A stretch of 64,000 nucleotides of DNA from Clostridium sp. CMCC3677 (GTDB lineage: Bacteria; Bacillota; Clostridia; Clostridiales; Clostridiaceae). The translations under genes and the position numbers were made by a program. Of this stretch, positions 1,968-6,351 are shown piece by piece. The DNA lies in assembly GCF_023845585.1 (NCBI RefSeq), contig NZ_JAMQHS010000004.1:124001-188000 (forward strand), given 5' to 3'. Below the pieces are notes generated by a model, which was not told the DNA's origin, made no database searches, and was given only the letters and a program-made list of their open reading frames with translations. Every line of letters starts with the position of its first letter. The first letter of the stretch is position 1.

Positions 1968-2048
1968 TGGTTAATAAAAAATAACAAAAAATCACCTCGT
2001 TAAATATATTAAGCTTTTTATTTTTAGCTTGTATATATTTAACGAGGT
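1968..2048 (-). terminator. Terminator of the rib operon, possibly bidirectional
   Basis: A 16-bp perfect stem (arms 1994-2009 and 2033-2048), extended inside by an AAGCT/AGCTT pair, lies just past the ribH stop. On the minus strand it is followed by a T-rich tract (1993-1968). On the plus strand the downstream tract is weak, so it probably serves the rib operon mainly while also insulating the DeoR-type gene. Confidence 0.85.
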
Positions 2049-2087
2049 TGAATTATTCTATTCTGTATATATTAATTTGTCATCTCA

Positions 2088-2640: not shown

Positions 2641-3834
2641 TTATATATTTAATAAATGATTCATTTTTTCTTTTTTAATCTTTAAATAAAATTCATCATT
2701 TTTGTTTAATGGCATTTCTATAGAAATTCTTTTTACTACATCAATATCATTTTCTCTAAGTCCATCTATTTTTTCCGGGTTATTTGTTATTAATTTAATT
2801 CTATTTATCCCTAAGTTTTTTAACATATCTGCACTAGATTTATATTCTCTTAAATCTGGTGCAAATCCTAAAGCTAAGTTAGCTTCAACTGTATCTAATC
2901 CTTCATCTTGAAGTGAATATGCTTTTAATTTGTTTAAAAGACCAATACCTCTTCCTTCTTGTTTCATATACAGTAAAATACCTCTTCCTTCTTGTGCGAT
3001 CATTTTCATAGCTGCATCATATTGTTCTCCACAATCACATTTTTTTGATCCTAAACTATCCCCGGTTAAGCATTCTGAATGAACTCTAACAAGTACTGGT
3101 TCTTCTCCTGAAATATCTCCCTTTATTAAAGCTAAATGACATTTTTCACTATCATTTTCTTTAAATCCTATAACCTTAAAGTCTCCATATTTTGTTGGAA
3201 GTTTTGCTTCCACTTCTTTAGTAACACTTCTTTCATTTCTTAGTCTATATCTTATTAATTCTTCTATAGTTAATATTTTCAAATCATGTTCCTTAGCAAA
3301 TTTTATTAAATCATCTCTTCTTGCCATACTTCCATCATCTTTTATTATTTCACATATTGCAGCAGCTCCTTTAAAGCCTGCAATTTTCGCTAAATCTACT
3401 GAAGCTTCTGTATGTCCTGTTCTTTCTAATACACCTTTTTTCTTTGCTATAAGAGGAAATACATGTCCAGGTCTTCTAAAGTCCTGTGGTCTTTCACTTT
3501 GTACTAACATTTTTATAGTGTCAGATCTTTCGAATGCTGAAATTCCAGTAGTTGTATCTATGTAGTCAACAGCTACTGTAAATGCTGTTTCATGATTGTC
3601 TGTATTTTTTTCAACCATAGGATTTAATCCTAATTTTAATGCTATTTCTTCTTCTACAGGTGCACACAACAGTCCTCTTGCATATTTAATCATAAAATTC
3701 ACATTTTCAGGAGTTGCTTTCTCTGCTGGAATAACTAAATCACCTTCATTTTCTCTTCCCTCATCATCAACAATAATAATCATTTTTCCATTTCTTATAT
3801 CTTTTACACATTCTTCAACAGTACTAAATTTCAT
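2641..3834 (-). CDS. ribBA: Bifunctional DHBP synthase / GTP cyclohydrolase II
   Basis: Fused enzyme of 397 aa that supplies both riboflavin precursors. Residues about 1-200 are 3,4-dihydroxy-2-butanone-4-phosphate synthase: VDDEGRENEGD holds the acidic metal/substrate residues, and RRPGHVFPL and RTGHTEASVDL follow. Residues about 205-397 are GTP cyclohydrolase II: the VRVHSECLTGDSLGSKKCDCG zinc-binding block with three Cys, then the EGRGI repeats and the C-terminal ITNNPEKI. It starts with ATG after a GAGGTGA site. It sits third in the rib operon, separated from ribE by a 261-nt spacer that folds into a long imperfect hairpin, which could lower expression relative to ribD-ribE (inference). 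Confidence 0.97.
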   Translation of the reverse strand: MKFSTVEECVKDIRNGKMIIIVDDEGRENEGDLVIPAEKATPENVNFMIKYARGLLCAPVEEEIALKLGLNPMVEKNTDNHETAFTVAVDYIDTTTGISAFERSDTIKMLVQSERPQDFRRPGHVFPLIAKKKGVLERTGHTEASVDLAKIAGFKGAAAICEIIKDDGSMARRDDLIKFAKEHDLKILTIEELIRYRLRNERSVTKEVEAKLPTKYGDFKVIGFKENDSEKCHLALIKGDISGEEPVLVRVHSECLTGDSLGSKKCDCGEQYDAAMKMIAQEGRGILLYMKQEGRGIGLLNKLKAYSLQDEGLDTVEANLALGFAPDLREYKSSADMLKNLGINRIKLITNNPEKIDGLRENDIDVVKRISIEMPLNKNDEFYLKIKKEKMNHLLNI

Positions 3835-3879
3835 CTTCTCTCACCTCATACATAATTTTATTTTAGGATTTGTTTTAAA

Positions 3880-4084
3880 GTTTTAAATATGTATTGATAT
3901 CTGCAATAGGCAAAATGGCGTTGTAATTGGACTTTGAGAATTCTTAATGAGTATTGTCACATTTACTGCTTGTCTCAATTTTATATTGGGAGCAAGCTAA
4001 AATGGGACTATAGTCATTTTAGTATTCCTAAGTTCAATTGCTCTGTCCAGTTTGCTTATGCATATATCAATACCCCCTTAAAAC
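3880..4084. repeat. Long imperfect inverted repeat between ribE and ribBA
   Basis: Two arms of about 99 nt (3880-3978 and 3986-4084) are imperfect reverse complements around a 7-nt centre. Identity is about 60% without gaps and clearly higher with a few gaps. The outer parts match best: GTATTGATAT/CTGCA at 3891-3905 against its partner around 4058-4073, and both ends carry GTTTTAA/TTAAAAC. One arm recurs in the ribBA-ribH spacer. It may be a decayed MITE-like element or an intercistronic RNA hairpin. The short open frames seen here on the plus strand have no family resemblance and are not called. Confidence 0.75.
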
Positions 4085-4095
4085 GCATTTTATTA

Positions 4096-4746
4096 TTAAA
4101 AACCATTTTCTCTTAAAAACTCCATGGTTACATTGCTTTCATTTTTTATTTCTTCATCCTTGTTATTTACTAATTTTTCAATATATTTTCCAACCACATC
4201 ACATTCTAAATTTACAACTGACTGAACTTTTTTCTCATATAAAATTGTATTTTCTAAAGTATGCGGTATAACAGATACTTTAAACTTTTCATCATCAACA
4301 TATGCAACTGTTAGACTTATGCCATCAATGGCTATTGAACCTTTGTATATAATATATTTCAAAATCTCTTTTGATGCAGATATAGTAACCCATGTACCAT
4401 CGACCTTTTTTTCTATATCGGTTATTTTACCTACTCCATCTATATGACCACTTACTATATGTCCACCAAATCTATCTTCTAATTTCATTGCTCTTTCAAG
4501 ATTAATTTTATTTCCTGATTTCAAACTTCCCAGTGAACTTTTTTCTAAGGTTTCTCCCATTACATTAGCTTTAAATGAAGATTTAGTCATTTCCAAAACT
4601 GTTAAACATACACCATTTGATGCAATACTATCTCCTATTTTAGTATTTTCCAGTACCTTATTGGCTCTTATTTCTATTACTCCAAAGCCTCCCCCTAATG
4701 TAAGTTTCTCTAAACTACCTACTTCTTCAACAATTCCAGTAAACAA
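4096..4746 (-). CDS. ribE: Riboflavin synthase, alpha chain
   Basis: Riboflavin synthase, 216 aa, dismutates two 6,7-dimethyl-8-ribityllumazine molecules into riboflavin plus the pyrimidine that re-enters the pathway. It has two tandem lumazine-binding (Lum) barrels, about residues 1-97 and 98-200. The N-terminal MFTGIVEEVG, the SIASNGVCLTV block (active-site Cys) and its second-barrel counterpart SIAIDGISLTV are all present. The start is TTG at 4746, supported by AAAGGATGTGA 6-9 nt upstream and by the invariant MFTG N-terminus. It lies 14 nt after ribD in the rib operon. In Bacillus literature this gene is sometimes called ribB or ribC. Confidence 0.96.
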   Translation of the reverse strand: MFTGIVEEVGSLEKLTLGGGFGVIEIRANKVLENTKIGDSIASNGVCLTVLEMTKSSFKANVMGETLEKSSLGSLKSGNKINLERAMKLEDRFGGHIVSGHIDGVGKITDIEKKVDGTWVTISASKEILKYIIYKGSIAIDGISLTVAYVDDEKFKVSVIPHTLENTILYEKKVQSVVNLECDVVGKYIEKLVNNKDEEIKNESNVTMEFLRENGF

Positions 4747-6158: not shown

Positions 6159-6217
6159 AAAAATCAATTTAAATAATACGAATTAAAACCTAATAATCAT
6201 TAGATCAAATAAGTAAT

Positions 6218-6326
6218 TTCTTCTTTCATCCAGACTTTACTGTCGGCTTCGGAATTTAACCGAATCTGCTATTTCTAGCTCGCGGGCTTTACCGCCGGTA
6301 GGGAATTTCACCCTGCCCTGAAGATT
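6218..6326 (-). promoter_or_regulatory. FMN riboswitch (RFN element)
   Basis: The minus strand carries the conserved RFN core in order: CTTCAGGGCAGGGTGAAATT, then CCCTACCGGCGGTAAAGCCC, the GCGAGC turn, AGATTCGGTTAAATTCCGA, GCCGACAGT, and AGTCTGGATG closing with the GAAAGAAG P1 strand. In this class FMN binding to the nascent leader favours termination and shuts off riboflavin genes. It is followed by two terminators before ribD. Confidence 0.97.
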
Positions 6327-6351
6327 AATATTTAATTTATATTTTTATATT

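Follow-up and report, generated by a model that had tools for sequence, protein, structure and literature searches.

Among the described systems closest to the locus studied here, the Correia elements of Neisseria (CREE/NEMIS) are short repeats with inverted ends, present in more than 100 copies, which lie within mRNA at some sites, where RNase III acts on the hairpin (PMC2649163). The Chunjie MITE of Geobacter uraniireducens sits in an operon without disturbing it (PMC10969869). Elements of the IS1595 family usually produce target duplications of 8 bp (PMC8101967; PMC12561309), and these two papers credit the zinc-ribbon subgroups of the family to Siguier et al. 2009. Template switching during replication is reported both to give rise to hairpins and to repair them (PMC8794818), and in quasipalindromes, whose symmetry it maintains, the arms change in step, whole pairs are replaced and single changes accumulate without constraint (PMC8794818; PMC7202029).

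The repeat described here, found in a spacer of the rib operon of Clostridium sp. CMCC3677, resembles each of these systems in part. Like the Correia elements, it is a short, many-copy element with inverted ends; unlike them, it is nearly all stem rather than inverted ends around a core. The likeness to Chunjie is one of description, drawn across different organisms. The repeat shares the in-step change of arms with quasipalindromes but is also mobile, so that transposition of variant masters adds to the pattern. MITEs as an element class are already known, and the family in this spacer is an added example.

The window analysed, a stretch of 64,000 nucleotides, contains ribD, ribE, ribBA and ribH on the minus strand (Table 1). 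The preliminary description of this DNA placed an imperfect palindrome between ribE and ribBA, and both the palindrome and its setting in the rib operon proved correct. On the plus strand, the 3880-4084 region folds into a single long hairpin (81 pairs, -80.6 kcal/mol, z -8.5, with no shuffle out of 200 folding equally well). The two arms of 99 nt, for which about 60% ungapped identity had been claimed, pair as reverse complements at 61 of the 99 positions without gaps, and allowing gaps raises this number. The limits given for the palindrome were slightly short, as the repeat copy extends beyond them on both sides. The minus strand, which corresponds to the operon transcript, folds at -61.8 kcal/mol (z -4.5); this stability gap between the strands is not a G.U signature, because the pairs common to both strand folds of the window copy include one G.U and one A.C. 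An Rfam search returned no family at the element, and the plasmid and phage collections held no match to it.

Table 1. Features of the rib operon and of the repeat copy in its ribE-ribBA spacer (window positions)
Feature	Coordinates	Strand	Basis
FMN riboswitch, upstream of ribD	6214..6329	-	Rfam RF00050, 121 bits
ribD	5903-4761	-	ORF; name from sequences and the preliminary description
ribE (riboflavin synthase)	4096..4746	-	ORF; conserved in 49/69 genomes of the genus
Candidate right target duplication TTATTATTA, includes ribE stop codon (4096-4098)	4090..4098	.	suggestive only
Worn copy of the MITE, 225 bp long (217 bp in the family unit)	3866..4090	+	aligned with 30-38 other host-genome copies
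Right hairpin arm	3986..4084	+	complementarity with left arm; fold
Left hairpin arm	3880..3978	+	61/99 ungapped complementarity with right arm; fold
8-nt tandem duplication GTTTTAAA x2, private to window copy, beside left end	3872..3887	+	sequence compared with consensus
Candidate left target duplication TTATTTTA, worn	3858..3865	.	one indel from TTATTATTA; suggestive only
ribBA ribosome-binding site GAGGTGAG	3840..3847	-	sequence; outside the element, intact
ribBA	2641..3834	-	ORF; name from sequences and the preliminary description
ribH	2549-2088	-	ORF; name from sequences and the preliminary description

A search of the host genome (3.64 Mb, 150 contigs) revealed that the palindrome is one copy of a dispersed repeat, which recurs there at least 40 times with 86-94% identity. 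Once aligned and oriented, these copies define a family unit of 217 bp that is almost wholly palindrome and carries terminal inverted repeats of the form GGCT(A/C)TGTTTTA..TGTTGATATATG at both ends; the family ends read GGCT(A/C)TGTTTTA...TGTTGATA, and their inner part is GTGTTGATATATG. Allowing up to two mismatches, the terminal pattern matched the host genome 164 times, against 0 matches for a reversed-pattern control. Perfect 8-bp target duplications flank 11 of the 30 copies examined, two more copies match at 7 of 8 positions, and the targets are AT-rich. The repeat copies, their termini and these duplications together meet the definition of a MITE, and the 217-bp family, short, non-coding and dispersed, with an empty site in relatives at the ribE-ribBA junction, is therefore assigned to that class. 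Many contigs of the host genome begin or end in or near repeat copies (for example, the first bases of C10, C21, C72 and C98 and the last bases of C67 and C129), so the assembly was probably broken by the repeat and the copy counts are underestimates.

The genomic distribution of the family is consistent with insertions tolerated as harmless, since none of the 59 copies examined in two genomes, the host and its relative G083, lies inside an ORF of at least 90 aa. Of these copies, 18 have convergent and 8 have divergent flanking genes, 30 lie in tandem settings, and 3 were not assigned. The host genome also holds two shortened derivatives that look like the products of deletions at the hairpin tip: one of 60 bp (L112 72-131; G000:C87:198471-198530) is made up solely of a head-to-head pair of terminal repeats, and one of 141 bp (L113 99-239; G000:C108:86398-86538) is flanked by a perfect 8-bp duplication. 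Older relatives of the family occur in the same genome at 71-74% identity (L032 2148-2366, L014 1773-1912, L121 439-574), which suggests several waves of spread.

The copy in the rib spacer was delimited by alignment to the consensus ends, with the plus strand taken as the orientation of the family consensus used. Its left end reads GGATTTGTTTTA and is followed by the private tandem duplication, which accounts for its length of 225 bp; at the right terminus, most of the outermost 6 bases are gone. The insertion lies ~5 nt past the ribE stop and ~31 nt ahead of the ribBA start, a position that disrupts neither reading frame and spares the ribBA ribosome-binding site. The same ribosome-binding motif precedes ribBA in the two closest relatives, G083 and G005.

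To place the insertion in its evolutionary context, 69 genomes of the genus were searched for ribE, and 30 loci, with that of the window among them, were read. The ribE-ribBA gap measures 261 nt here, compared with 36 nt in G083 (ribE 79% identical) and 29 nt in G005 (81%), and it does not exceed 150 nt in any other relative with a readable gap. The MITE insertion is absent from every relative in which this gap could be read. As far as comparison of these genomes goes, the insertion is lineage-specific, and the odd spacer of the rib operon is explained as a transposon scar.

The question of which transposase moved the family was addressed with IS1595-family elements of the genus. Their ends, GGCTNTGTTTTA..TGTTGA, match the outer motif of the MITE in five transposase-bearing loci, and perfect 8-bp duplications flank all four of the elements checked in other genomes of the genus. 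These transposase-bearing elements measure ~1.6-2.2 kb. One full-length transposase, scored directly, reached 46 bits for PF12762, over the cut-off, and 24.5 bits for the zinc ribbon, just under the cut-off; the remaining full-length transposases are 66-92% identical to it. Because the terminal motif and the 8-bp duplications are common to the MITE and to intact IS1595-family elements in other genomes of the genus, the most likely agent of its movement is a transposase of the IS1595 family.

The resemblance is incomplete. Common to the MITE and the IS1595 family are ends that start with GG, AT-rich target duplications of 8 bp and the GGCTNTGTTTTA..TGTTGA motif; unlike the family, the MITE has no transposase, measures only 217 bp and is nearly all palindrome. 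No intact transposase with exactly the MITE ends was found, and the inner part GTGTTGATATATG differs from that of every element with a transposase that was examined, so the exact parent was not found among them. The host genome contains no IS1595-family transposase domain (PF12762) and no intact transposase of this kind; it keeps one 53-codon transposase relic, with a worn sequence resembling the terminal repeat ~660 bp away. Several elements with matching terminal repeats carry passenger genes (L064/L065, G070:C85; L044, G041:C2; L046, G047:C1). In one intact IS1595-family element the passenger is an M24 peptidase gene, and in a broken one it is a GNAT acetyltransferase gene; a further unit of ~757 bp, bounded by matching terminal repeats, lacks a transposase and contains a GNAT gene only.

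We consider it highly probable that a MITE of ~217 bp, mobilised in trans by an IS1595-family transposase, landed past the ribE stop and decayed at its ends. In such a history, the transposase would recognise the GGCT(A/C)TGTTTTA...TGTTGATA ends in trans and generate 8-bp duplications of AT-rich targets; one copy would have inserted just past the ribE stop in this lineage, sparing ribE and the ribBA ribosome-binding site, and would then have worn at its termini. The hairpin would be transcribed within the operon mRNA, with an effect on ribBA and ribH that is presumably small or neutral. The preliminary description had offered two readings, a degenerate MITE-like insertion and a maintained intercistronic hairpin. 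The former is borne out by the copies, the termini, the 8-bp duplications, the empty site in relatives and the transposase-bearing elements with matching ends. The latter finds no specific support, given the absence of the insertion from the relatives with a readable gap and the equal mutation of paired and unpaired sites in the host copies. The two are not mutually exclusive, because a MITE of such shape forms a long hairpin whenever it is transcribed.

A MITE in this position could have been co-opted as an intercistronic RNA element, with RNase III cutting the transcript, or with the transcript being stabilised or attenuated, so as to set ribBA-ribH relative to ribD-ribE. The element does lie inside a co-directional operon and would be part of its transcript, the strand of that transcript retains a hairpin fold, and by analogy RNase III acts on transcribed Correia elements of Neisseria (PMC2649163). 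Set against this, the insertion is lineage-specific and worn, mutations in the host copies fall on paired and unpaired sites without distinction, and the operon is transcribed as the less stable of the two strands. Nor is there a terminator-like site: intrinsic terminators, sought as a G+C-rich stem followed by a U run, numbered 0 on both strands of 3800-4150. Such co-option is in our view unlikely, and a regulatory effect of the window copy kept by selection is equally improbable; tuning of the operon by the spacer hairpin and RNase III cleavage of that hairpin are unsupported. Promoter-like matches in 3800-4150 (6, compared with 1.8 in shuffles) were set aside as weak 9-of-12 sites in AT-rich DNA. 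Away from this spacer, a 36-nt inverted repeat (window 1974-2068; 75% complementary, 23-nt spacer) immediately follows ribH, in the interval up to a DeoR-like regulator gene, and may be the end structure of the rib operon.

Comparison with a second species extends the analysis from this copy to the family. The relative G083 harbors a related repeat in at least 40 copies, with 75-83% identity across the matched part; the 224-bp consensus of that repeat is a near-perfect hairpin of -115 kcal/mol, compared with -104 for the host consensus. When compensatory changes were sought between the two species, as the preliminary description had proposed, 66 pairs could be aligned between the consensuses: 60 were unchanged, 5 differed on both sides with pairing kept, and 1 differed on one side. 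In a scan of named genomes, the terminal pattern was found in Clostridium akagii DSM 12554 only. The family adds to the known MITEs a near-perfect palindrome in Clostridium-like genomes that appears to be IS1595-derived, and with dozens of copies in each of two related species, the upkeep of a long hairpin, by template switching or by RNA selection, becomes countable.

Within each species the arms co-vary. The inner pairs of the host copies show 21 two-sided Watson-Crick changes compared with a shuffled-column mean of 3.5 (maximum 9), and those of G083 show 68 compared with a mean of 28.8 (maximum 40), although these counts are not independent events, because many derive from subfamilies of related copies. 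Rare substitutions occur at paired and unpaired sites at rates of 0.0137 and 0.0144, respectively, in the host copies, and of 0.0124 and 0.0084 in the G083 copies. Equal mutation at paired and unpaired sites of the host copies together with co-varying arms fits template switching from arm to arm during replication.

Selection on the plus-strand RNA of the family, independent of the rib operon, could likewise keep the inner hairpin. The co-variation beyond shuffles in both species and the five two-sided changes between the consensuses are in keeping with it, as is the inner stem, where 38 distinct G.U states were counted against 16 A.C states (p 0.004), an excess that is a lead rather than a result, because the copies are related by descent and the data were partitioned in several ways. 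The terminal repeats show no such G.U excess (21 G.U, 29 A.C), and we read the inner-stem excess as a weak hint of RNA-level selection. Against such selection stand the equal mutation of paired and unpaired sites in the host, the origin of many common states in subfamilies and thus their non-independence, and the orientation of the copies in tandem gene settings, 21 antisense and 9 sense to the more stable strand across the two genomes. Template switching, moreover, explains co-varying arms without selection (PMC8794818). RNA selection on the family is accordingly quite unlikely, and there is only a slim chance that the inner hairpin is a structured RNA selected in one orientation and travelling with an IS1595-type transposase, rather than a DNA palindrome whose symmetry replication errors maintain.

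Further long intergenic palindromes of ~190-220 bp (L035, L036, L039; G008, G021) resemble the MITE family in one arm only (77-78%) and are possibly further MITE families of the genus.

Parentage by the ISL3 family was considered first and dropped. ISL3 elements also show GG ends and 8-bp duplications, and the host genome contains two ISL3 (PF01610) relics; neither relic, however, is flanked by MITE ends, whereas IS1595-family elements are, which makes derivation of the MITE from ISL3 very improbable. That the palindrome is a chance product of AT-rich DNA, for which low G+C content and nothing further speaks, is refuted by the dispersed copies, their target duplications and the fold z of -8.5, and its probability is practically nil. 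A repetitive ORF beyond the window (L031 2667-2939; G000:C98), which encodes LHSNMVRLK over and over, is probably a CRISPR array beside an ISL3-transposase relic.
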